Shown: positions 48,638-59,985, counted from the first letter of the stretch. The stretch is DNA of 64,000 nt from Bacillota bacterium (GCA_021324975.1 JAJPIA010000138.1:1-64000), one strand, 5' to 3'. Numbers and translations: made by a program. Notes: generated from the letters alone by a model not told the origin.

Positions 48638-48664
48638 TGGTGGAGGCGGCGGGAATCGAACCCG
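48638..48664 (-). repeat. ssrA 3' end, inner attachment-site repeat
   Basis: The last 27 bases of ssrA, including the encoded CCA (TGGT at 48638-48641 on the plus strand), are identical to 46050-46076. This end is attached to a full tmRNA gene and is therefore the functional copy. Confidence 0.85.
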
Positions 48665-49016
48665 CGTCCTGAAGCCGCGAGGGCAGAGCATCTACGCGCG
48701 TATCCTATGATTTGTTGTCGCGATACCGGACTCCCACAGGCCGGATTCCGGTGCCGCCAGCTCCGCGTGTCTTAGCCGGCCTTCCCGGAGCAAGAAGGTC
48801 GGAGCAGCCGGCTTGTTGGCGCTCACTCCCCGCCCGCCGGCCCTGCGGGGGGAGCGACGCTACTTAATTAAGCAGCGTAGGCTAGCTGTGTGTTGGCGTG
48901 TATCCGCCGTCCAGTTGTTTTACGAGGACCTGGACCACCTCGGCGCGCCGCCCTGCTTCTGCATGCTCAGTCGAGACCGTTCGCCCCCATTCGTCCCCGG
49001 ATTCCTATCCGCCAAA
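48638..49016 (-). ncRNA. ssrA: Transfer-messenger RNA (tmRNA)
   Basis: About 379 nt. The 5' part has GGGGACGAATGGGGGCGAAC and TCTCGACTGAGCATGCAGAA; the tag frame at 48897-48868 reads GCC AAC ACA CAG CTA GCC TAC GCT GCT TAA, encoding ANTQLAYAA; the 3' end is a T-arm GGGTTCGATTCCC with an acceptor strand and CCA. It rescues stalled ribosomes with SmpB (19917). The 5' end is placed at 49016 by alignment of the acceptor stem. Pairs 4-7 form, but positions 1-3 (TTT against TCC) do not, so the end may be off or the stem altered. Confidence 0.92.
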
Positions 49017-49070: not shown

Positions 49071-49360
49071 CCTGAGCTACGCGATGCCGCGCACGCGCGC
49101 GGTCGCGGCGCAGAGTTGGGGAAGAGTTAAAGTAGCGCCCGCAAGATGCCGCGCGGCGAACCAGCCGGCTCTCCGGGAGCCGGCGTTCAAGACCGGCTCA
49201 AGATTGATGGAAGTCCAGCGCCAATGCCGCGCGGGCGTTCGCTCTCTGGGCTCTTCTGGGTCGAACGAGCGCGCGCATCTCAAACGACCACGTCCCGACG
49301 TTGGACCGCCAGCTGCCGTCACGAAAGTGCCGGTTCCCGCACTTAATGACGGGCTACAAG

Positions 49361-49870
49361 ATGAGGCCGGAGATGGACGCGGAGACGTTTGCCCGCATCT
49401 ACGACAGTCACTACCCGCGGGTGTTTCGCTACCTGCTCGGGCGGATCCGCGGTCGGCACGAGGCTGAGGAGCTCACCGCCGAGGTGTTCGCCGCCGCCTT
49501 GGAAGGGCTGCAGCGCGGGCGGCAGCCCCGGCACATCGGGAACTGGCTCGTCGGCATCGCCGACCACCTGGCGTCTCGTTTCTGGCGCAAGCGCGCAGTG
49601 GAGCGGGATTTCGATGGAGACACCGCGGTGATCGACGTGCGCGATCCGGAAGACGTCACCATGAGGCAACTGGACACCGAGGTCCTGTGGCGCTGCCTCG
49701 GTGCCCTGGAGCCGGAGCACCGTCAGGTGCTGCTGTTGCGCATCGTCGCCGAGCTGCCCGCCCGTCAGGTCGGGATCATCATGGGCCGATCGGAAGAAGC
49801 CGTGCGGAGCCTACAGCTCCGAGCGCTGCGAGCACTGCGACGGCATTGGACGGAGGCGAACGGGTCATGA
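49361..49870 (+). CDS. ECF-family sigma factor
   Basis: 169 residues. Region 2 has FARIYDSHYPRVFRYLLGRI and AEELTAEVFAAAL, the core-binding and -10 recognition part, and region 4 has LEPEHRQVLLLRIVAELPARQVGIIMGRSEEAVRS, a helix-turn-helix for the -35. ATG 49346, 49361 and 49373 are in frame and none has a strong ribosome site. The downstream gene overlaps it by ATGA. The 290 bases between the ssrA promoter and this gene hold no recognised site. Confidence 0.88.
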   Translation: MRPEMDAETFARIYDSHYPRVFRYLLGRIRGRHEAEELTAEVFAAALEGLQRGRQPRHIGNWLVGIADHLASRFWRKRAVERDFDGDTAVIDVRDPEDVTMRQLDTEVLWRCLGALEPEHRQVLLLRIVAELPARQVGIIMGRSEEAVRSLQLRALRALRRHWTEANGS

Positions 49871-50493
49871 ACGACTCCGACATGATGCCCAATACGGAAA
49901 TGCAGCTTGAGCTGCTTCTCCGCGAGTTGCTGGACGAACAGCCCGGCGGCTCGGGTGAGAGTCCAGCGGTTCGGGATCTGTCGCCCGAACTGATTGCGCT
50001 TCGAGATCTTGCGAGCCGCCTGCGTGAGGCGGGCCGGCAGGTGCCGCCGAGCGCGGCGTCGTTCGGGGCGCAGGGCTTCGGGCACACCGGCCGCGCGGGA
50101 CTGGCCGTGGGGCGGGCGTCTACGAATACCGGCCGCCGGTACGGCGCCTGGGTTGGCATCGCGGCGGCCATGCTGCTGGGTGTGTTCGGCGCCGCTCTCG
50201 GCGCGGGCTCGGCGAGCGCGTCCCCGGCGAGTCCATGGTATTCCGTGCGTATTGCCCTCGAGAACCTACAAGTGGCCATCACTCCGGACGTGCGCGCGCG
50301 CGCTGAATTGTTGGTCCAGCATGCACACGCCCGCATCGCGGAAATTCGCGTCATGGCGGCGACCGGCGATGAAGGAGGGCTCAGGCGCGCCGCCGATGCT
50401 CTCGATGCCGACGCGGAGTGGCTGCATGCAATTCTGCGAACCTTGCCGCCGCGCGAGCAGCGTCAGTGGGTTCGCGTGCTGGGCCGCGTTTGA
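49867..50493 (+). CDS. DUF5667-type membrane protein, candidate sigma regulator
   Basis: 208 residues. A soluble N-terminal part of about 90 residues is followed by TM near 98-115 (IAAAMLLGVFGAALGAG) and an extracellular DUF5667-like helical domain (PWYSVRIALENLQVAITPD, then ARAELLVQHAHARIAEI). The ATGA overlap with the sigma gene and the one-TM plan fit an anti-sigma-like partner, but no zinc-binding anti-sigma motif is seen. It could also be the sensor part of the operon. Confidence 0.75.
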   Translation: MNDSDMMPNTEMQLELLLRELLDEQPGGSGESPAVRDLSPELIALRDLASRLREAGRQVPPSAASFGAQGFGHTGRAGLAVGRASTNTGRRYGAWVGIAAAMLLGVFGAALGAGSASASPASPWYSVRIALENLQVAITPDVRARAELLVQHAHARIAEIRVMAATGDEGGLRRAADALDADAEWLHAILRTLPPREQRQWVRVLGRV

Positions 50494-50543
50494 GCGCACG
50501 CGCAGGTGACAGGCGCTCGATGAGTCACGAAAGGGGGAGGCGC

Positions 50544-51458
50544 ATGCGTTGGCTTGCAGCCGGTCTTGCACTGGGCTTGATCGGATTCGCCGCTGCCGCA
50601 CCGGGATGGGCAGCCACGGGGACCCAGCCGCTCGCGGTCGAGTTCGACCACGTGAACATACCCTCCGGGGGTGCGACGACCGCGACGACGGGAACGGTAG
50701 GGGGCCTATCGACAACGCTTTCGATGACCGGGACGGCAACCTCCGGTACATTCACCGAGACCGTCTCGGGCTTGAGCGGGACCGCGAAGGCGCAGTTTGG
50801 ACAGTTGAGCGGCAGCTACTCGTGCAACGCGGGTGATTGCTCCTTTTCCATCACGTCGGCTACCGGGGTATTCGGAAAGGTAACGGGGACGACGCTCACG
50901 CTGAACATCGCCGGCCCAACGATGACGGTGCTGGGCACCTCGCTGCCGAATCACGGGACCTGGGTTTCGACCGTGGCGCGCGCCGCATCCCTGCTCAAGG
51001 CCCAGGGGACCCTGCCGGCGGGCATGACCGTGGGCAACTTGGTGAGCCAGGCGGCGAAGAACGAAAAGGAATTGCAATCTGAGATTTCCGGCAATGGCAA
51101 CGGGGCCGGGAACGGGCACGGCAACGGGGCCAATGGAAATGCCGGCAAAGGAAATAGCAACGGCAATGGCGGCGGTAACGGCAATGGCGGTGGCAACGGC
51201 AATGGTGGCGGTAACGGCAATAGTGGCGGCAACGGCAATGGCGGTGGCAACGGGAACGGCAATGGCAACGGTGGAAACGGCAATAGTGGAAATGGCAATG
51301 GGGGGAACGGCAATGGTGGTGGGAACGGAAACGGCAATGGCAACGGTGGGAACGGAAACGGCAATGGCAACGGGAATGGTGGTAATGGCAATGGCAACGG
51401 TGGGAACGGCAACGGGAACGGTGGGAATGGCAACGGCAGCAACGAGGGGCATCACTAG
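50544..51458 (+). CDS. Secreted protein with long Gly-Asn repeat tail
   Basis: 304 residues. The signal peptide MRWLAAGLALGLIGFAAAAP ends near WAA. A Ser/Thr/Gly-rich middle part of about 150 residues (TSGTFTETVSGLSGTAKAQF) contains two cysteines in YSCNAGDCSF. From about residue 183 to the end it is almost only Gly and Asn. GGGGGAGG lies just before ATG 50544; ATG 50520 is an alternative. It is 50 bases after the DUF5667 gene and probably in the sigma operon. A structural or surface role is likely; none is proven. Confidence 0.75.
   Translation: MRWLAAGLALGLIGFAAAAPGWAATGTQPLAVEFDHVNIPSGGATTATTGTVGGLSTTLSMTGTATSGTFTETVSGLSGTAKAQFGQLSGSYSCNAGDCSFSITSATGVFGKVTGTTLTLNIAGPTMTVLGTSLPNHGTWVSTVARAASLLKAQGTLPAGMTVGNLVSQAAKNEKELQSEISGNGNGAGNGHGNGANGNAGKGNSNGNGGGNGNGGGNGNGGGNGNSGGNGNGGGNGNGNGNGGNGNSGNGNGGNGNGGGNGNGNGNGGNGNGNGNGNGGNGNGNGGNGNGNGGNGNGSNEGHH
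51090..51445 (+). repeat. Low-complexity repeats encoding Gly-Asn units
   Basis: Short units such as GGCAATGGC, GGTGGC and AACGGG recur throughout the stretch in slightly different order, keeping the reading frame. Such repeats arise and change by slippage. The reverse strand has long open frames as a by-product; they are not genes. Confidence 0.7.
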
Positions 51459-51664
51459 TCCAAATCAGTACTGAGCGCTCCATCCCCCGGGAGCAATGAG
51501 GGAGTCCTAGCGACGGCCGGCGCGCACCGGCCGTCCGGGGCTCCCTCTCCCGTTGGGGCGACGGTCTCGCCTGCCTGGAGGGGCAGTTTTGCGGGGCTTG
51601 GGCACACTCGGCCGAATCGGTGGCCGACCGCCGCGCACCGCCGCGCCGAGAGGGCCGCTTCGGC

Positions 51665-53347
51665 ATGCCGGAGAAGCATCACACCATGCGAAGCGACGTT
51701 CGGCCTCCGGCCGCCGCCTCACGAACAGCCACCGGCGGAGAAGCGCTGGTGCAATGTCTCAAGGCACACGGTGTTGACACGATCTTCGGCCTGCCCGGGG
51801 TCCAACTCGACTGGGCGTTCGACGCCTTGTACGCCGAACGAGACGCGATCCGCGTCTATCACACGCGGCACGAGCAGGCCGTGTCCTACATGGCCGACGG
51901 TTACGCGCGCGTCACAGGACGCGTTGGCGTGTGTCTGACCGTACCGGGGCCCGGCGTGTTGAATGCGATGGCGGGTCTCGCAACAGCGTACGCGTGTTCA
52001 TCCTCCGTACTCTGCTTGACGGGGCAAATTCCATCGCAGGAGATTGGAGCCGGTCGAGGGCTGCTGCACGAGATCAATAACCAGCTTGGCGCGCTTCGTT
52101 CCGTCACGAAGTGGACCGCACCGGCACATACCCCCGAGGCGATTCCCGGCACGATCGCGGAAGCATTCCGGCAACTGCGCACCGGCCGTCCGCGGCCGGT
52201 GGCCGTGGAGATCCCGCCGGATGTGCTCCGCGCGACCGCTCCATCGACGCCACCTGCGACCGCGGTGGTCGAGGCGGCCATGCCCGACCCCGAGGTGGTC
52301 GAGCGCGCGGCACGAGCGCTTGGGCGAGCCGAACGACCGGTCATCTTTGCCGGCGGCGGCGTCCTTCGCGCGGCAGCGTGGCAGCCGCTCCGTGAACTTG
52401 CCGGGATGCTCGAAGCTCCGGTGGTCATGACGGAGAACGGCAAAGGCGCCGTCTCCGATCGGGAGTACCTCGCGCAAAACATGACCGCCGCCGCGGAGCT
52501 CGTGCCGGCCGCGGACGTCATCTTGGTGATCGGCAGCCGGTTCTACGTCCCGTCGCGGTCCGATTGGGGACCGCGGGCCGGCCAGACCGTAATCCAGCTC
52601 GACATCGACCCGGAGGAGCTTGGTCGCAACTCCCCGGTGGCGCTGGGTATCGTGGCGGATGCGCGGCGGGGCCTCGAGGCCCTCGTGGCCGCGGTGCAGC
52701 GTCACAACCGGCGGCGGGCGCGGCGCCGCGATGAGCTGGAGGCGATCCGGGCTCGAACCCGGGCCAAGCTAGAGACCGTGCAGCCCCAGGCGGCGTTCGC
52801 CGCGGCGATTCGCGATGTGCTGCCCGACGACGGCATTCTCGTCACCGAAATGACGCAGGTTGGGTACTGGAGCAACGTCGGATTTCCGGTCTATACGCCG
52901 CGCACGTACATTACGTCGGGGTATCAGGGGACGCTCGGCCACGGGTTCGCAAACGCGCTCGGCGCACAGGTCGGCGCGCAGGGGCGGCCGGTCGTCTCGA
53001 TCAACGGCGACGGCGGCTTCATGTACAACGTGCAGGAACTATCGACCGCCGTCCGGCACCGGCTCAATGTGGTGGCGATCGTCTTCAGCGACAACTCGTA
53101 CGGAAACGTGCGGCGCATCCAGCGCGAATCGTTCGGCGGCCGCCTCATCGCGTCCGACCTGCTGAACCCGGATTTCGTGCTGCTCGCGGAAGCGTTTGGG
53201 ATGGAAGGCATGCGCGTCGAGACCCCTGACGCGCTCCGGCGGGCACTGGCCAAGGCGCTGTCCGATCAGCACCCGGCACTGATCGAAGTGCCGGTCGGGG
53301 AGATGCCAAACCCGCGGACCGTTATGCGGCCCGGTTACCGCGGCTAG
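51665..53347 (+). CDS. Thiamine diphosphate-dependent enzyme (acetolactate-synthase-like)
   Basis: 560 residues in the ThDP superfamily layout. The N-terminal Pyr domain has FGLPGVQLDW and the cofactor-activating Glu in TRHEQAVSYMADG. The middle Rossmann-like domain has GGGVLRAAAW. The C-terminal PP domain has GDGGFMYNVQELSTAV and FSDNSYGNV, the Mg-ThDP motif. It may be an acetolactate synthase, a glyoxylate carboligase or a decarboxylase; no ilvN-like small subunit follows. ATG 51686 is an in-frame alternative. Its last 26 bases overlap the convergent nucleotidyltransferase gene. Confidence 0.88.
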   Translation: MPEKHHTMRSDVRPPAAASRTATGGEALVQCLKAHGVDTIFGLPGVQLDWAFDALYAERDAIRVYHTRHEQAVSYMADGYARVTGRVGVCLTVPGPGVLNAMAGLATAYACSSSVLCLTGQIPSQEIGAGRGLLHEINNQLGALRSVTKWTAPAHTPEAIPGTIAEAFRQLRTGRPRPVAVEIPPDVLRATAPSTPPATAVVEAAMPDPEVVERAARALGRAERPVIFAGGGVLRAAAWQPLRELAGMLEAPVVMTENGKGAVSDREYLAQNMTAAAELVPAADVILVIGSRFYVPSRSDWGPRAGQTVIQLDIDPEELGRNSPVALGIVADARRGLEALVAAVQRHNRRRARRRDELEAIRARTRAKLETVQPQAAFAAAIRDVLPDDGILVTEMTQVGYWSNVGFPVYTPRTYITSGYQGTLGHGFANALGAQVGAQGRPVVSINGDGGFMYNVQELSTAVRHRLNVVAIVFSDNSYGNVRRIQRESFGGRLIASDLLNPDFVLLAEAFGMEGMRVETPDALRRALAKALSDQHPALIEVPVGEMPNPRTVMRPGYRG

Positions 53348-54530
53348 TCCTCGGCGCCAAGGTCCAAGCGATCCGCCGCAGCGCCCTGAAGGCGAAGGCC
53401 AAGGGCAGGGCCCACGCCGATCGCATGCGCCACCTGCGCCGGTAGTAGTCCGGTAACCCCAAAACCATTCTGAACAACCCGATACCTCGCGGCAGGCTCC
53501 AGGAGTAGTCGAGATACCCGATGCAGGTCGCGGTCCACGTCCCCCAACGCTCAGGGGGTACGGTGCGCGCGGTGTGCACAACGCGATCCGAAAAGCGGAC
53601 CGGTCGAGTCGCGAGGTCGCGTAGCACGCTCTCCGGGACGTCGGCCTGAAGCGTGCGCCGCAGGTAACCGAGTCCGTCCCGGACGACCAACGTGAACCCG
53701 TAGCGGTTGGCATGGGCGCACAAGCGCTGCCAATCCGGCGTGCCGTCCCGCGCGCGCAGAACCGCGAGCGCGTCGCTGACCCAACGAACCCGTGAGAGTT
53801 CCGCGGTGACGGCGCCGCGCACGATCCCATGCGTGAGAATATGCAGCAGCAGATCGGCCGGGTTCAGCACCCGGATAGATGTGCCGAGAGCGCGTACCTC
53901 GGCCGTGTCGTGCCAGATGGACCCCTCGCCGTCGTTTCGAGGGCTCTCCGGAAACAGCCGCCAATGCAGGTCGAACTCGTGTCCCGGGCCACTCGTGAAT
54001 TCCAATTCCGCATGCTGACGCGGATGGGCGATCGTGTCGGCGAGTTCCTGTTCCGGCGCCCCGCGGGGGACACACCCGTGGCGGAGCAACAAGTCGATCG
54101 CGACGGATGCGCGCTCCCGCGGGATGTAGATGTCGAAGTCCGCCATGGGGCGCATCCCGTGGTCGTGGTAGTAGTGGTGAATCACGGCCGCGCCTTTGAG
54201 CAGGGCGACCGGAATCTCAGCCTCGCGCAGCAGCCGTAGGGGGCGCGCGATCGCATGAAAGCGGAGCTGGTTTTGGTACCACGTCCGCCGGTAGATGCCC
54301 TTGAGCCTGCCCATCAAGGGGTCGGAAATACCCTGCTCCCTCAGGTTGCAGTATAGTTGCGGCACCAGCCGATACGACTCGCTGTCGATGTCGTCGAAGT
54401 CGACCGCAGACTTCCACCGGTCCCAGGCCGCAAGGCTGGCGCGCCCGCGCAGCAGCGCAGCGCACAGCAACAGTTCCTCCTGTGGGGTGGGCCAAGGCTC
54501 GCGTCTCGCGTACTCAATGGTGGCGGCCAT
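53322..54530 (-). CDS. Nucleotidyltransferase family 5 protein (PF14907-like)
   Basis: 402 residues. The N-terminal helical part (TPQEELLLCAALLRG) is followed by the active-site region ALLKGAAVIHHYYHD and MADFDIYIPRERAS, with an acidic pair typical of nucleotidyltransferases. GGAGG is 5 bases before ATG 54530. Proteins of this family accompany lasso-peptide and PqqD-containing modification clusters. It is divergent from the PqqD gene at 54798; the 267 bases between hold no clear precursor frame. It overlaps the end of the ThDP gene by 26 bases. Confidence 0.85.
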   Translation of the reverse strand: MAATIEYARREPWPTPQEELLLCAALLRGRASLAAWDRWKSAVDFDDIDSESYRLVPQLYCNLREQGISDPLMGRLKGIYRRTWYQNQLRFHAIARPLRLLREAEIPVALLKGAAVIHHYYHDHGMRPMADFDIYIPRERASVAIDLLLRHGCVPRGAPEQELADTIAHPRQHAELEFTSGPGHEFDLHWRLFPESPRNDGEGSIWHDTAEVRALGTSIRVLNPADLLLHILTHGIVRGAVTAELSRVRWVSDALAVLRARDGTPDWQRLCAHANRYGFTLVVRDGLGYLRRTLQADVPESVLRDLATRPVRFSDRVVHTARTVPPERWGTWTATCIGYLDYSWSLPRGIGLFRMVLGLPDYYRRRWRMRSAWALPLAFAFRALRRIAWTLAPRTSRGNRAA

Positions 54531-54797
54531 GCGCTCCTCCGCTTCTCTCGAGATCTTCCGGTGTGCGGCGGGGGATCCTGCCGGGAGGCGGGGTATCAAA
54601 AGCATAAGGCGAATGCTCGACTTGCCTCAGTAAAATCCGGCATTCGGATGGCGAACACAGGATCGTTCCCTGCAGGCTCGCGAATGGGATATTTCGAAAT
54701 ATGTGATTTCAACGGAGGGAGATGGTGCGGATCCCGGCAGGTCGCCGGTGACCCGGCACGGTGCGTTTTGTCAATCGTGGACCACAGGAGATTGTGG

Positions 54798-55265
54798 GTG
54801 AGCCGACCGGCATCGTTTAGGATCGAGAGTCCCAAGGTCGTCTATGAAGTCTTTGACGACGAAGTGGTGATCATTAACCTCGAGACCGGCGTCTACTACA
54901 GCCTCAACGGTCTTGGCGCCGAGATCTGGACCCGCATCGAGGAGACAGACGATGTCGTCCTTGAACTCGCCGCCCGGTATCAGCGTCCGGCTGGGGACGT
55001 CGAGGCGGCGGTGCGCCCGTTTTTGGACGGTCTGGTGGCCGAGGGCCTCGTGGCGCCGGATCCCCGGGCGAACGGTGAACGCCGACATCGGACGAGCGGC
55101 GCTACGGCGGTCACGCGGGTTTCGACGTTCGAGGCGCCGGTGCTCCACAAATACAGCGACATGCAGGAGTTGTTGTTGCTGGATCCGATCCACGAGGTGG
55201 ACGAGGTGGGCTGGCCGGTTCGGCCGAACGAGCCTGACGGCGACGGCCGCAAGGATCCGCCGTAA
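54798..55265 (+). CDS. PqqD-like protein (RiPP recognition fold) with acidic C-terminal tail
   Basis: 155 residues. Residues about 5-85 are PqqD-like: a beta segment with VVIINLETGVYYSLNGLGA followed by helices (WTRIEETDDVVLELA). PqqD domains bind leader peptides of RiPP precursors. The C-terminal 45 residues are unlike PqqD: a threonine/alanine hinge, then KYSDMQELLLLDPIHEVDEV and GWP. AGGAG stands 7 bases before GTG 54798. It begins the plus-strand run of the kinase-like and glycosyltransferase genes. Confidence 0.8.
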   Translation: MSRPASFRIESPKVVYEVFDDEVVIINLETGVYYSLNGLGAEIWTRIEETDDVVLELAARYQRPAGDVEAAVRPFLDGLVAEGLVAPDPRANGERRHRTSGATAVTRVSTFEAPVLHKYSDMQELLLLDPIHEVDEVGWPVRPNEPDGDGRKDPP

Positions 55266-55371
55266 TCCCAGTTCCATCCTCTCCGCCGACAGTGTCAACC
55301 GGGTAACGCCCACGTCCAGGCCGTTCGATCGCCCCGTCGTCGATCACAGCGCGGTCGCGTTCGCGGCGGCA

Positions 55372-56388
55372 GTGCGCGAGACGTTCGATCGCGCGGCGCG
55401 CCTCCTGGGTTCGGCTGATTGCTGGTACCGTATCGCCGGCCATCCTGTCCGCATCCGCTTCGCGGGTACGGCTCTGCAGTCGCTGCTCGCGCCCGCGTTG
55501 GAGCACCTGGCGACGGAGCCCGTGCCCGGCCGCGCGCTGACGCTCTGTGTGTGGGACATTGAATCCGTGCGCGGCCAGGTTCCCGCGCCGCCGTGGCGGC
55601 TCGATGGGGAAGCGCATGGTCCGGAGCTGCGCGTGTATCACGACGGGCGGGTTCAGGCTGCGTTCGACGTTGCCACCGGCACGCTGTCCGTCCTCGACCG
55701 CGCCGATCGCCTGGCCTGGTATTGCGTACGCGATCCTCGCGAGTTGCCCGGATGGGAATTCGGGACGCCCTTCAAGCTGATCTTGCATTGGGCGTTACGC
55801 GACCATGGCAGGCAACTCGTGCACGCGGCCGCGGTGGGCCGGGCGGACGGCGGGGTCTTGCTCGTCGGCAAAGGCGGGGCGGGAAAATCCACGACAGCGC
55901 TGAGCTGCCTCGGCTCCGAGTTGCGCTACGCCGCCGATGACTACTGCATGCTGTCTGCCGATCCCATGCCGTACGCACACAGCCTGTACAATTCTGCGAA
56001 GGTCTACGCTCAGGAACTGCCACGATTCCCTGCACTCGCCGGGGCGCGATGCCGATTGGACGCCCCTGGGATGGACAAAGCACTGCTGTTTCTCCATCCG
56101 CACGTCGGCAACTGCGTTACGGCAGGCTTCCCGATCCGCGCCGTGCTTGTGCCGTCGGTCGCAGGCGGCGCGGGCACAACGGCGTGCGCCGTGCCTGCCT
56201 CCGTCGCCTTGCGCGCGCTCGCGCCGAGCACGATGTTTCAAGTGATCGGCCCGGACCCGTCGACCCTCGCCGTGCTGGCCGCGTACGTCAAGCGGCTGCC
56301 GTGTTACGCGCTCCGTCTCGGGCCGAGGCTTGCGGAGATCCCGCACGTCATCACCGACGTACTCGCACGCGTGCCGCAGCCGGCATGA
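55372..56388 (+). CDS. HPr-kinase-like P-loop protein of the PqqD cluster
   Basis: About 338 residues from GTG 55372; the open frame extends further upstream without another clear start. The N-terminal half is a substrate-like domain and the P-loop LLVGKGGAGKST begins near residue 164, followed by RYAADDYCML, where the DD resembles the HPrK magnesium site. HPrK-like kinases in lasso-peptide clusters phosphorylate precursor peptides. The stop overlaps the ATG of the first glycosyltransferase (ATGA). The substrate is unknown. Confidence 0.8.
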   Translation: MRETFDRAARLLGSADCWYRIAGHPVRIRFAGTALQSLLAPALEHLATEPVPGRALTLCVWDIESVRGQVPAPPWRLDGEAHGPELRVYHDGRVQAAFDVATGTLSVLDRADRLAWYCVRDPRELPGWEFGTPFKLILHWALRDHGRQLVHAAAVGRADGGVLLVGKGGAGKSTTALSCLGSELRYAADDYCMLSADPMPYAHSLYNSAKVYAQELPRFPALAGARCRLDAPGMDKALLFLHPHVGNCVTAGFPIRAVLVPSVAGGAGTTACAVPASVALRALAPSTMFQVIGPDPSTLAVLAAYVKRLPCYALRLGPRLAEIPHVITDVLARVPQPA

Positions 56389-57164
56389 CCGGATTAGGAC
56401 CCTCCCTGAGCGTGGTCATCCCCGTCTTCAACGGCGAGACGTACCTGGCTGACGCGGTCGAGAGCGTGCGGAGACAGGCCTACACCGATTTGGAAGTGAT
56501 CCTCGTCGACGATGGGTCGACCGACGGCACTGCCGACGTGATACGGAGGCTTCCACCGGACGGGCTCCACTACGTGCGCCAAGACAACGGCGGCCCCGCA
56601 CGGGCCCGCAACCGCGGCCTGGCGCGCGCTCGTGGCAGTATCATCGGGTTCCTCGACGCCGACGACCTCTGGCCGGCGGGTCGACTCCATCGGCAGCTCG
56701 CCGTGCTTCAACGCGATCCATCGATCGACATCGTGCTCGGCCGGGTCCAACTGGTGCGCGCGACCGGCGCCGCGCCGGGCTTGCCGCTCGAGGAGTCATC
56801 ACTGCCGTTCGTGCTGCTGACCCCGACCGCCGCGTTGTTTCGGCGAAGGGTCTTCGAACGCGTCGGCGGCTTCGACGAGGCGCTCCGGTACGGCGAAGAC
56901 AGCGACTGGTTCATGCGGGCTCGGGAGCGCGAGGTGCGCGTCGTGCTGGAGCAAGACGTGGCGTTGCTGTACCGGCGTCACGCGGGCAATATGACGCGCG
57001 GCCGGAATATGAAGGAGTTGCAGGTCTTCGAGGTACTGAAGCGATCCTTGGACCGCCGCCGCAAGGGCGGCGGCGGCGCCGCGGCGTCACTCCCCGGGCT
57101 CTCTTCATGCGGCGGTCAGGCCGAAGAGCGGTGCGGCCGCTCTCAATGTTCGGACGATGAGTGA
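56385..57164 (+). CDS. Family-2 glycosyltransferase (copy 1)
   Basis: 259 residues, GT-A fold. SVVIPVFNGETYLADAVESV, the nucleotide-binding VDDGSTDGTADVI and the DXD-type LDADDLW are present, with RGLARARGSIIGF before the last. The C-terminal part has GEDSDWFMRARE. There is no membrane segment. It is coupled to the kinase-like gene by ATGA and overlaps the next gene by 8 bases. The sequence is very like the glycosyltransferase at 57888, including NMTRGR near the C-terminus. Confidence 0.9.
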   Translation: MTGLGPSLSVVIPVFNGETYLADAVESVRRQAYTDLEVILVDDGSTDGTADVIRRLPPDGLHYVRQDNGGPARARNRGLARARGSIIGFLDADDLWPAGRLHRQLAVLQRDPSIDIVLGRVQLVRATGAAPGLPLEESSLPFVLLTPTAALFRRRVFERVGGFDEALRYGEDSDWFMRAREREVRVVLEQDVALLYRRHAGNMTRGRNMKELQVFEVLKRSLDRRRKGGGGAAASLPGLSSCGGQAEERCGRSQCSDDE

Positions 57165-57891
57165 CGTCACGGGGCCAGACGGGTCGGTCGCCGAGACGGC
57201 GCCGCTAGTGAGCGTCGTGATACCGGTTTATAATTGCGAGGCGTATCTGGCCGAGGCGCTCGACAGCGTCCTGGCGCAGACGTACCGACCGGTCGAGATC
57301 ATTGTTGTCGACGATGGGTCGTCGGATCGAAGCGCATCCGTTGCGGCGCGATATTCGGGCGTCCGCTGCCTCACGCAGCCGCACGCGGGTGCCGGGGCCG
57401 CCCGCAACCTCGGGGCGGCCAGTGCGTCCGGAAGCTTCCTGGCGTTCCTGGACGCGGACGATCTGTGGGTGTCGGACAAGCTGGAGAGCCAGATGGCTGC
57501 GTTCCGCGCCAGCCCTGCACTCGACATGGTCTCCGGCTATGTCCGACAGTTCCACAGCCCCGAGCTCGGCGCGGACGTCAAGGCGAGGCTCGCAGGAGCC
57601 GGCACTGTGCTCCCGGGGCATGTCCACACGATGCTCGTGAAGCGTTCGTCGTTCGGCCGCGTCGGCCCGTTGCCGACGCACTGGCGCCTTGGGGAGTTCA
57701 TCGACTGGTATGCGACGGCCAAGGAGCTCGGCCTCAACTGCGTACTCGTCCCCAAGGTCGTCACGCTGAGGCGATTGCACGGCAGTAACATGGGGATTCG
57801 CGAGCGCGACGCTCGAGCCGATTATCTGAAGATCCTCAAGGGAGTGCTGGATCGGCGCCGGCGGGGCGCTGCGCAGCAGGACGCCACATGA
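57157..57891 (+). CDS. Family-2 glycosyltransferase (copy 2, divergent)
   Basis: 244 residues, GT-A fold with SVVIPVYNCEAYLAEALDSV, VDDGSSDRSASVA and LDADDLWVSDKL. It differs from its two neighbours through the middle and has an RLHGSNMG segment near the end. It overlaps the preceding gene and, by ATGA, the following one. The sugar donor is unknown. Confidence 0.9.
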   Translation: MSDVTGPDGSVAETAPLVSVVIPVYNCEAYLAEALDSVLAQTYRPVEIIVVDDGSSDRSASVAARYSGVRCLTQPHAGAGAARNLGAASASGSFLAFLDADDLWVSDKLESQMAAFRASPALDMVSGYVRQFHSPELGADVKARLAGAGTVLPGHVHTMLVKRSSFGRVGPLPTHWRLGEFIDWYATAKELGLNCVLVPKVVTLRRLHGSNMGIRERDARADYLKILKGVLDRRRRGAAQQDAT

Positions 57892-58655
57892 TGAACCCTC
57901 AGCGCCTCGTCAGCGTGATCATTCCGGTTTTCAATGGCGAGACGCACCTCGTCGACGCGGTCGACAGCATTCGGCGGCAAGAGTATGCATCAGTCGAATT
58001 GATCGTGGTCGACGACGGATCGAGCGATGACACCGCGGGAGCGGTGCGGCGGCTGCCCCAGGACGGCCTTCGGTACGTGTACCAGGAGAACGGCGGGCCT
58101 TCGCGGGCGCGAAACCGCGGGCTCGCGCTGGCGCAGGGCGACGTGATCGGGTTCCTGGACGCCGATGACGCCTGGCCGCCGTGTCGGCTCCGGAGGCAGC
58201 TGGCCGTGCTCGACCGGGAGTCGTCGATCGATGTCGTTTTAGGCCAGACGCAGCTCCTGCGGCCATCGGCCGGCGACGCGACGCGCTCGCGGTTCGAGAA
58301 AGACGGGCCCCCGATCGTATTCCTGTCACCGAACGCCGCGTTGTTCCGAAGGCGGGTCTTTGAGCGTGTCGGTGGCTTCGACGAGGCGCTGCGCTACGCC
58401 GAGGACATCGATTGGTTCATGCGGGCCCGGGAACTCGACGTGCCCCTTGCCGTCGAACATGACGTGGCATGGCTGTACCGGCGCCATGAACGTAACATGA
58501 CGCGCGGTCGGAGTATGAGGGAGTTGCGCGTGCTCGATGTCCTTAAGCGCTCGTTGGACCGCCGCCGCCAGGGTGGGCGGGGTGCGGCTCCGCTTCCGAC
58601 CCTGTCGCGGGGCGGCCGATGTGGGCCGGACGGGCGCGGAGCCGGGGATGGGTGA
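57888..58655 (+). CDS. Family-2 glycosyltransferase (copy 3)
   Basis: 255 residues, GT-A fold with SVIIPVFNGETHLVDAVDSI, VDDGSSDDTAGAV and LDADDAW. It matches the gene at 56385 over nearly the whole length, including RVFERVGGFDEALRY and NMTRGRSMRELRVLDVLKRS, so the two arose by duplication around copy 2. The ATG overlaps the preceding stop. Confidence 0.9.
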   Translation: MMNPQRLVSVIIPVFNGETHLVDAVDSIRRQEYASVELIVVDDGSSDDTAGAVRRLPQDGLRYVYQENGGPSRARNRGLALAQGDVIGFLDADDAWPPCRLRRQLAVLDRESSIDVVLGQTQLLRPSAGDATRSRFEKDGPPIVFLSPNAALFRRRVFERVGGFDEALRYAEDIDWFMRARELDVPLAVEHDVAWLYRRHERNMTRGRSMRELRVLDVLKRSLDRRRQGGRGAAPLPTLSRGGRCGPDGRGAGDG

Positions 58656-59985
58656 CACCGGGGGGCCGGGTGCGCTCGTGCGAGGCGCGGCGTCATCAAG
58701 GGGAATCCCGAGCAGACAATCGGAGCCGCGTCCCTTCGTGACGGCTTCACTGCGCCGCGAGCTGGAGACGGAACTGCGCCGCCTCATGGGGGCTTGGTTC
58801 CCGCGCTGCATCGATCGAGTGCACGGCGGGTTCCTCTGCAACTTCGACCATCGATGGAAACCCTCCGGGCCGCAGGTCAAGATGCTCGAGTATCAGGCGC
58901 GGCAGACCCTGGCGGCGGCGAGGGGCGCGGCCTACGTTCCCGATCTCGTCCCTCTGCGCGAGGCGGCCGTGCACGGATTTCAATACCTCGCGGGCCCGAT
59001 GTGGGATCGCCGCATGGGCGGTTGGTACAGGCAGCTCGATCGGGCCGGGACGCCCCTGGAGGGATCGAACAAGCACGGCCATGGGATGAGCTACGCGATC
59101 TCGGCATGTGTGGCATGCTATCGGCTGACCCGGGATCCAGACTGTCTGGAGGTGGCGAAAGCGGCCTTCAACTGGTTGGAGCAACATGCGCACGACGGCC
59201 GGTATAGCGGTTACTTCGGATTTTACCGGCAGGACGGGACTCCGATCCTGTCGTGGGACCAAGCGGCGGCCGCGGGCCCGCACACGGACGCGATTGGGAC
59301 ACCGATCGGCTTCAAGGACGCCAACACGACCTGTGACCTGCTCAGGGGATTCGCCGATCTGTACCGGGTCTGGCCCGATGCGCTGCTGAGGGTGCGCCTA
59401 GAGGAACTGCTGCGCATCGTGCGCGACCGCCTGGTCGTCGCCCCCGGAGTGATGCACATGTACGCGCACCCCGACTGGACGCCGATCCCGGAGATTGTCC
59501 GCTATGCGCAGATTCTCCGTGCCGCAAATCACATGTTGCCGGCGGCGGAAGCGCTGGCTGGGACTGTCGACCCGGAGACCACACGGGTTGCCAAGTCGAT
59601 GCTCGACACGATGCTGCGTGTCGCCTGGGACTCAGACAAGGGCGGGTTCTTCCTTGCGGGGTCCAGCTTTGGTCCGGCGTACTTCGACGATACCGTCATC
59701 TTCGTACGGACCAAGTGCTGGTGGGCTCAAGCCGAGGGCATGAGGCTGCTCACGGCGGTGGCGCGGCTGTACCCCGACGATGCGGCCGGGTACGGCGAAC
59801 GCGTCGCGGCCCTCTGGAAATACGTGAAGACATACGTCATCGACGCGAAGCACGGCGGCTGGCTCGCCGCCGGCCTCGACACCAACCCCGCGGCGCGCAA
59901 GCAGCCGAAGGCCACACGATGGAAGGACTGCTCGCACGAAGCCGAAGGACTGCTGGATTCTCTCCTACTGTCGGGATCGTCCTGA
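58648..59985 (+). CDS. N-acylglucosamine 2-epimerase (AGE) family protein
   Basis: 445 residues. The (alpha/alpha)6-barrel family pattern is visible: WFPRCIDRVHGGFLCNFD near the start, GSNKHGHGMSYAISACV with histidine pairs in the middle, and GGWLAAGLD and RWKDCSHEAEG at the end, the last carrying a conserved catalytic-type His. AGE-family enzymes epimerise sugars at C2 (GlcNAc/ManNAc, or cellobiose). The start overlaps the third glycosyltransferase by 8 bases. It may supply the sugar used by the transferases or modify the product. Confidence 0.88.
   Translation: MGDTGGPGALVRGAASSRGIPSRQSEPRPFVTASLRRELETELRRLMGAWFPRCIDRVHGGFLCNFDHRWKPSGPQVKMLEYQARQTLAAARGAAYVPDLVPLREAAVHGFQYLAGPMWDRRMGGWYRQLDRAGTPLEGSNKHGHGMSYAISACVACYRLTRDPDCLEVAKAAFNWLEQHAHDGRYSGYFGFYRQDGTPILSWDQAAAAGPHTDAIGTPIGFKDANTTCDLLRGFADLYRVWPDALLRVRLEELLRIVRDRLVVAPGVMHMYAHPDWTPIPEIVRYAQILRAANHMLPAAEALAGTVDPETTRVAKSMLDTMLRVAWDSDKGGFFLAGSSFGPAYFDDTVIFVRTKCWWAQAEGMRLLTAVARLYPDDAAGYGERVAALWKYVKTYVIDAKHGGWLAAGLDTNPAARKQPKATRWKDCSHEAEGLLDSLLLSGSS

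Follow-up and report, generated by a model that had tools for sequence, protein, structure and literature searches.

The window, a 64,000-nt stretch of DNA from a Bacillota bacterium (GCA_021324975.1, JAJPIA010000138.1:1-64000), encodes between positions 53322 and 59985 a nucleotidyltransferase (NTase), a PqqD-type RRE protein, a kinase, three family-2 glycosyltransferases (GT2) and a sugar epimerase. These genes, and the segments of the PqqD protein, are as follows.

53322..54605, minus strand: NTP_transf_5 nucleotidyltransferase, transcribed divergently (PF14907, 135.8 bits vs a cut-off of 31.2)
54606..54797, no strand: divergent intergenic region between the NTase and PqqD genes (~190 bp, from gene coordinates)
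54798..55265, plus strand: PqqD-type RRE protein of 154 aa with a C-terminal peptide tail (Pfam PqqD, 51.5 bits vs 23.4)
54816..55061, plus strand: RRE (winged helix) domain, residues 7-88 (AlphaFold pLDDT about 91-96)
55062..55127, plus strand: variable linker, residues 89-110 (mean column entropy 3.49 bits; pLDDT 63-65)
55128..55157, plus strand: leader-like docking segment FEAPVLHKYS, residues 111-120 ([F/Y/W]xxPxLxK[Y/F][T/S]; pLDDT 95, strand at 116-119)
55158..55217, plus strand: candidate core DMQELLLLDPIHEVDEVGWP, residues 121-140 (mean entropy 0.59 bits)
~55315..56388, plus strand: HprK-like kinase of the HPrK/PEPCK superfamily (weak Pfam/NCBIfam HPr kinase matches; PEPCK-like predicted fold)
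56385..57164, plus strand: family-2 glycosyltransferase 1, GT2-1 (PF00535, 119.8 bits vs 23.3)
57157..57891, plus strand: family-2 glycosyltransferase 2, GT2-2 (PF00535, 113.8 bits vs 23.3)
57888..58655, plus strand: family-2 glycosyltransferase 3, GT2-3 (PF00535, 112.3 bits vs 23.3)
58648..59985, plus strand: AGE / cellobiose 2-epimerase-like sugar epimerase, accessory (PF07221, GlcNAc_2-epim, 55.9 bits vs 23.4)

The gene set named in an earlier note on this DNA is borne out, by Pfam matches and, for the kinase, by its predicted fold. The tight packing with overlapping starts that was also described there holds for the kinase, the three GT2 and the AGE genes. It does not extend to the NTase gene, which is on the opposite strand and diverges from the PqqD gene across ~190 bp, and is thus outside the packed run. 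The PqqD gene starts with GTG, with AGGAG upstream. GT2-1 begins at 56385 in an ATGA overlap with the kinase stop, GT2-2 at 57157 with an 8-nt overlap and GT2-3 at 57888 in a second ATGA, and the ATG of the AGE gene at 58648 overlaps GT2-3, so that translational coupling is likely. Upstream of the conserved kinase N terminus, the kinase ORF has no ATG, GTG or TTG as far back as the PqqD stop. The AGE protein scores 103.7 bits against NCBIfam EpiA, under the cut-off of 800.

The kinase matches Hpr_kinase_C at 19.8 bits, below the cut-off of 33.3, and has a P-loop. A structural model predicted from 51 relatives (mean pLDDT of 92.7) matches PEP carboxykinases, whose fold superfamily includes HprK. 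In the alignment of relatives, a His, the P-loop Lys and an Asp-Asp pair are invariant or nearly so. The P-loop, catalytic His, Asp pair and PEPCK-like predicted fold place the protein in the HPrK/PEPCK superfamily, and these four residues, His-Lys-Asp-Asp, are essential in lasso-peptide kinases (PMC9266682). In one relative (L053) the kinase is fused to a GT2, and kinases of equal length in several other loci are probably kinase-GT2 fusions as well.

Beyond its variable linker, the PqqD protein continues as a tail, FEAPVLHKYSDMQELLLLDPIHEVDEVGWP. In this tail, the [Y/W]xxPxL motif known from the leaders of RiPP precursors that bind an RRE comes first, and a nearly invariant core comes next. 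The earlier note had seen no precursor at the locus, wrongly, since this conserved PqqD tail is a precursor-like peptide. From a single scan across 84,980 species genomes came 231 relatives, of which the best 80 were taken; because tail patterns found them, the presence of the tail in those 80 loci is by construction. PqqD relatives are 36-61% identical to the window protein, and their tail consensus consists of an RRE-binding motif, FxxPxLxKY[T/S], and the core DMQDLLLLDPIHEVDExGWP. Mean column entropy is 2.05 bits in the RRE, 3.49 in the linker, 1.54 in the docking segment and 0.59 in the core, which makes the core the most conserved part of the protein. The docking segment keeps its F in 77, P in 81, L in 75 and K in 70 of 82 relatives. 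Core residues D, M, D, P and H are invariant (82/82), and GWP is invariant in A3 although it was absent from the search patterns. The sole frequent Ser/Thr of the tail is at the KY[T/S]DM position (75/82). None is invariant among the 82 relatives, so the phosphoacceptor known from the kinases of lasso peptides and of linear polyphosphorylated peptides (LPP) is not guaranteed.

Two kinds of variant support a division of the tail into leader and core. Three loci (L145, L155, and L158) keep the docking part and DMADLLALDP and have the remaining core changed, a leader/core pattern. In four others (L050, L053, L074, and L076) the (G)WP unit is repeated, an apparent duplication of the end of the core like that of multi-core precursors. 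Fusion of the tail to PqqD holds in all loci read and in all searches made, and this architecture is secure at the sequence level. A PDB search with the tail profile returned nothing meaningful.

The record titles of the best 80 of the 231 loci name more than 12 phyla, although most of these records are MAGs, so that single phylum assignments may be wrong. The labels comprise Cyanobacteria, Chloroflexi, Nitrospirae, Deltaproteobacteria, Acidobacteria, Gemmatimonadetes, Bacteroidetes, Ignavibacteriae, Verrucomicrobia, Lentisphaerae, Planctomycetes/Brocadiia, Alpha-, Beta-, and Gammaproteobacteria, Actinobacteria (Thermoleophilia), Aminicenantes, Bipolaricaulota, and Bacillota. The tail ends the PqqD protein in two to three same-family genomes and on a cyanobacterial plasmid, NC_019735.1 of Crinalium epipsammum PCC 9333, with the gene order PqqD, NTase, kinase, FkbM methyltransferase, and GT2. 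Of 43 genomes from the window's own phylum, three have the tail pattern, and these three also have the kinase.

Because the 80-locus set was retrieved via tail patterns, the unbiased test of co-occurrence is a kinase-first search. Among 244 Cyanobacteriota genomes, a kinase-only profile matched 15 and a tail-only profile the identical 15, two weak partial tail matches (E 0.0036 and 0.0093) being counted as noise. The chance of such a coincidence is ~3e-24, uncorrected for shared ancestry. Eight of these 15 genomes, about 1.7-2.1 Mb in size, carry divergent forms. Loci were read in three of the eight; there the tail has the form D-A-Q-E-L-L-L-A-D-P-I-H-E-V...G-W-[S/T]-P, and the genes run NTase, kinase, PqqD-tail, then GT2 or a further sugar gene. 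Among 251 Chloroflexota genomes, all four with a full-length kinase match carry the tail, which is found in five genomes; weaker kinase relatives there (E 1e-10 to 1e-24) are without it. These results bear on one alternative, namely that PqqD, kinase and NTase are bystanders in an ordinary capsule or exopolysaccharide locus. Although the neighbourhood is indeed rich in GT2s, with sugar epimerase and SDR genes, this explanation is contradicted by the co-occurrence of tail and kinase in 15/15 genomes and by an adjacency repeated in 80 loci (best of 231) of unrelated taxa, and we consider it very unlikely.

A lack of synteny in relatives, which the earlier note had named as counting against its proposal, was not borne out: the genes are syntenic. 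Among the 82 loci with a readable tail, the kinase is present in 76, GT2s in 76 (mostly two to three per locus) and the NTase in 68. When the count is restricted to the 41 loci that span 19 kb or more, 39 have the kinase, 41 GT2s, 39 the NTase, 13 an ABC exporter and five the AGE protein. An MsbA-type ABC exporter, without peptidase domain in those scanned, is encoded in 23 of the 82 loci and was not found in the window cassette. The AGE protein, previously listed as a member of the cluster, is accessory: present in 7 of 82 relatives, it was rejected as a core enzyme. The number of GT2s and the extra sugar genes (SDR, AGE, GT1, FkbM methyltransferase) vary between loci.

Lasso genes, by comparison, are nearly absent. 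Asn_synthase occurs in 1 of 83 loci (L075), 7.4 kb off on the opposite strand, and B2 in two (L011 and L040), each time beside a separate tail-less PqqD. There is no Asn_synthase or lasso B2 protein on the window contig; in the window genome, Asn_synthase is on other contigs only and Transglut_core3 (the B2 protease) has zero matches. This upholds the earlier view that the locus lacks a cyclase and protease and is not a lasso cluster, and relatives with lasso genes nearby, which would have spoken against that view, are limited to the exceptions just given. Could this nevertheless be a lasso or paeninodin-type cluster, either a decayed one or one that relies on a cyclase and B2 protease from elsewhere? 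RRE, HprK-like kinase and NTP_transf_5 are common to paeninodin/pseudomycoidin clusters, the host genome has Asn_synthase genes, and L011 has a lasso-like PqqD-B2-HprK-NTase set about 5 kb from its tail locus. However, besides the scarcity of cyclase and B2 genes, the tail has no lasso ring pattern after Thr(-2), and its conservation speaks against decay. This explanation is largely refuted and retains a very slight probability at best; lasso membership was rejected because the cyclase is found in 1/83 and B2 in 2/83 loci, with neither on the window contig.

A separate precursor was likewise rejected: the 5342 short ORFs outside assigned genes in the 83 loci contain no conserved family. Short-ORF families are shared only among three close Oscillatoria relatives, and the leader-motif count in short ORFs is at chance (174 vs 186 in shuffled sequences). 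Of the two signs that the earlier note had proposed to look for, a conserved short frame is thus missing, while the conserved absence of lasso genes is nearly complete. A profile of four SpI seeds found no SpI-type signal peptidase in the 83 loci; matches to TIGR02228 in G000 (the window genome), G001, and G005 are on other contigs. No radical SAM or peptidase family is present among the annotated conserved neighbours. The gene neighbourhoods show a tail-RRE protein that co-occurs with one kinase subfamily, GT2s and NTP_transf_5, with no cyclase or leader peptidase. The core could still be excised to give a small cofactor-like molecule, following the logic of PQQ and mycofactocin, to which the GT2s add a sugar chain. 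A fixed rather than variable core, the RRE and GT2s that are somewhat MftF-like (88 bits vs a cut-off of 280) are compatible with this. Yet the GT2s resemble polysaccharide glycosyltransferases at least as well as MftF and, with no radical SAM or peptidase family among those annotated neighbours, we regard such a route as unlikely.

In an AlphaFold prediction of the window PqqD protein with 73 sequences, pLDDT is about 91-96 in the RRE, about 63-65 in the linker, ~95 in residues 111-120 and 56-63 in the core and C terminus, with a predicted strand at residues 116-119, inside the docking segment. This would dock FxxPxLxKY on the RRE where crystallised leaders lie and leave the core free. The best PDB matches in Foldseek are lasso RREs solved with leader peptides (5v1v, 5v1u, and 6jx3). 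The top match is TbiB1 bound to its leader (5v1v, E 7e-6), and phmmer also matches TbiB1 (E 1.4e-8), which together identify the RRE as lasso B1-type. In the PbaB1-PbaA crystal, WxxPxL occupies the groove, with the three residues after it added to the RRE sheet (PMC13381572). Here, FxxPxL is followed by HKY in the predicted strand, with equal spacing. Judging by secondary structure, model confidence and homology, strand 116-119 would pair with the leader-binding edge of the RRE.

The closest described system is the LPP family, linear polyphosphorylated peptide RiPPs reported in May 2026 from the lpp cluster of Paenibacillus alginolyticus (PMC13381572). LPP loci encode an RRE, an HprK-like kinase, an NTP transferase and an MsbA transporter, in capsule/GT-rich surroundings and without a macrolactam cyclase (PMC13381572), which makes the present arrangement less new than the earlier note supposed. 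The present family shares with them a discrete lasso-like RRE, the HprK-like kinase and NTP transferase, GT-rich loci, the missing cyclase and an RRE-binding motif, in LPP [Y/W]xxPx[L/V]; an MsbA-type transporter is encoded in the 23 relatives above and was not found in the window cassette. The LPP precursor, on the other hand, is a separate peptide with the leader YxxPxVLxHQxIxFETxxS, a variable C terminus and acceptor Ser3, and LPP are reported from Bacillota only (PMC13381572). Here, the peptide is fused to the RRE, has another consensus and a nearly invariant core without an invariant Ser/Thr, and belongs to a pan-phylum family. LPP also use an SpI-type signal peptidase. Because neither this peptidase nor a separate precursor was found in the 83 loci, LPP membership was rejected: the present family would work like LPP up to substrate presentation, yet is not filed as LPP.

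Other systems show narrower similarities. Paeninodin/pseudomycoidin systems (PadeK, ThcoK, PsmK, and PsmN) have the His-Lys-Asp-Asp kinase, a lasso B1-type RRE and an NTP_transf_5-type protein, there implicated in hexose addition to phosphoserine, whereas the present family is without cyclase, B2 protease, lasso precursor and conserved C-terminal Ser. HPr-rel-A (NCBIfam TIGR04352 and TIGR04353) also combines an HprK-related kinase with a PqqD-family protein, but the window proteins are far under its cut-offs (kinase 23.5/200 bits, PqqD 15.1/35 bits). Mycofactocin and PQQ share a PqqD-type RRE and a fixed peptide core, and mycofactocin a GT2; here, in contrast, RRE and peptide are one protein, and the radical SAM and peptidase families are missing from the annotated conserved neighbours. 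TbiB1/FusB1-type lasso RREs (5v1v, 5v1u, and 6jx3) are alike in fold and predicted groove use, except that their ligand is a separate precursor peptide instead of the RRE's own C terminus. A literature search, outside which most subscription papers lay, found no description of the tail motif or of an RRE with a fused precursor or leader-like tail.

Our best reading, to which we give even chances, is that the PqqD-tail protein is a self-presenting peptide carrier, with the tail as substrate, that is phosphorylated and/or glycosylated. The docking motif would fold back as a β strand into the RRE groove, like trans-acting leaders, leaving the core exposed, and the RRE would offer this core, in cis, to both the HprK-like kinase and NTP_transf_5. 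By analogy with PsmK/PsmN and LppK, these two enzymes might put a phosphate, then a nucleotide or sugar, on the core. Indeed, PsmK and then PsmN carry out phosphorylation and then hexose addition on a lasso peptide (PMC9266682), and LppK polyphosphorylates an RRE-bound linear peptide (PMC13381572). The GT2s may then extend a lineage-specific glycan on a constant peptide anchor, and the MsbA-type ABC exporter, where encoded, could carry the product out. Because no protease is encoded, the product would stay linear and may remain attached to the RRE. This scheme suggests a phosphorylated or sugar-coated peptide made without cyclase or protease, by an undescribed route. The earlier idea of a peptide or carrier that is phosphorylated or nucleotidylated and then glycosylated is compatible with this enzyme set, although it missed the precursor and counted AGE among the core enzymes.

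The main rival to this reading makes the tail a permanent docking or autoregulatory element that is never modified, the RRE and tail forming a scaffold that assembles kinase, NTase and GT2s for a polysaccharide or glycolipid product. It would account for a core that hardly changes between phyla beside a GT2 number and extra sugar genes that do vary, and it agrees with the lack of an invariant Ser/Thr and of a peptidase, with the kinase-GT2 fusion in L053 and probably several other loci, and with a tail always RRE-fused in the searches made. Against it, the docking segment resembles substrate leaders in motif, spacing and predicted strand, subfamilies change the core and keep the docking part, the (G)WP end is duplicated in some loci as in multi-core precursors, and the related LPP kinase phosphorylates an RRE-bound peptide (PMC13381572). 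We consider a scaffold a serious, if rather less probable, explanation. Several observations were counted against the peptide-carrier reading. Its weak point is the acceptor, since no Ser/Thr of the tail is invariant. Most RiPP cores vary far more than this one, whose constancy also fits a protein-protein docking motif; there is no leader peptidase, and the exporter is present in only 23/82 loci; and the substrates of the kinase and NTase could be sugars or lipids instead of the tail.

In its fullest form, which we advance tentatively, the peptide-carrier reading amounts to an undescribed class of pan-phylum ribosomal peptide pathway in which recognition domain and substrate peptide are one protein and the tail docks in cis. 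A phosphate-linked, lineage-specific glycan would then be covalently anchored on the constant core, and the leader would not be cleaved off. RRE-based genome mining would call such clusters incomplete, because it expects a separate precursor. If the RRE has a built-in substrate peptide, this would explain hundreds of orphan PqqD/HPr-kinase/NTase loci (231 relatives in one scan) and would give their hypothetical genes a testable substrate. It would also connect glycan assembly with RiPP kinases and NTP transferases, few of which have a known acceptor. Since the core is constant, what is learned in a single cultivable cyanobacterium could bear on all members of the family.

At lower coordinates than the nucleotidyltransferase (NTase) gene of the tailed cassette, in which a PqqD-type protein with a C-terminal peptide tail accompanies an HprK-like kinase, NTase and family-2 glycosyltransferases (GT2), the window carries the following genes, the three between 49301 and 51458 being named by eye.

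48638-48998: tmRNA gene, near the stretch 49301-51458
49301-49870: ECF-sigma-factor-like ORF
ending at 50493: second ORF of the stretch 49301-51458
50418-51458: putatively secreted protein that contains a long Gly/Asn repeat
51620-53347: thiamine-diphosphate enzyme (PRK08266 subfamily, 772 bits), convergent to the NTase gene

The ORF ends of the thiamine-diphosphate enzyme and the NTase overlap by 26 nt. Within the cassette, there is no ATG, GTG or TTG start between the pqqD stop and the conserved N terminus of the kinase (window 55263-55372). The kinase possibly has a non-canonical start, a start within pqqD or a truncated N terminus.

Among related loci, L050, L053, L074 and L076 carry tails with a repeated WP end (e.g. 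GWPNVDDKKGWPTRNPD), which resembles multi-core precursors. The tails of L145, L155 and L158 keep the docking part and DMADLLALDP, with IHEVDExGWP replaced by P-x-P-G-type sequences. An isolated 22-codon frame lacking a start codon, KPSLEKYTDQQEMLLLDPIHEV, lies outside any PqqD gene (L156:1501-1566) and may represent either a remnant or a tail encoded on its own.

One relative, L011 (G005 C115), has a second gene set ∼5 kb from its tailed cassette (L011:4883-8210). Besides a possible 31-aa peptide, MKRASQKPVPRKLGPISRITQTLTPPSISTA (L011:4938-5033), it encodes a PqqD that lacks the tail, together with a B2-type protease, an HprK-like kinase and an NTase; a cyclase is absent from the vicinity. This set looks lasso-like and cyclase-free.

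In L053, a C-terminal GT2 domain is fused to the kinase (L053:13572-15410), which is ∼600 aa long. Kinases of similar length occur in L027, L032, L057, L058, L070, L076 and L078. This fusion and the comparable lengths elsewhere suggest that phosphorylation and glycosylation are directly coupled.
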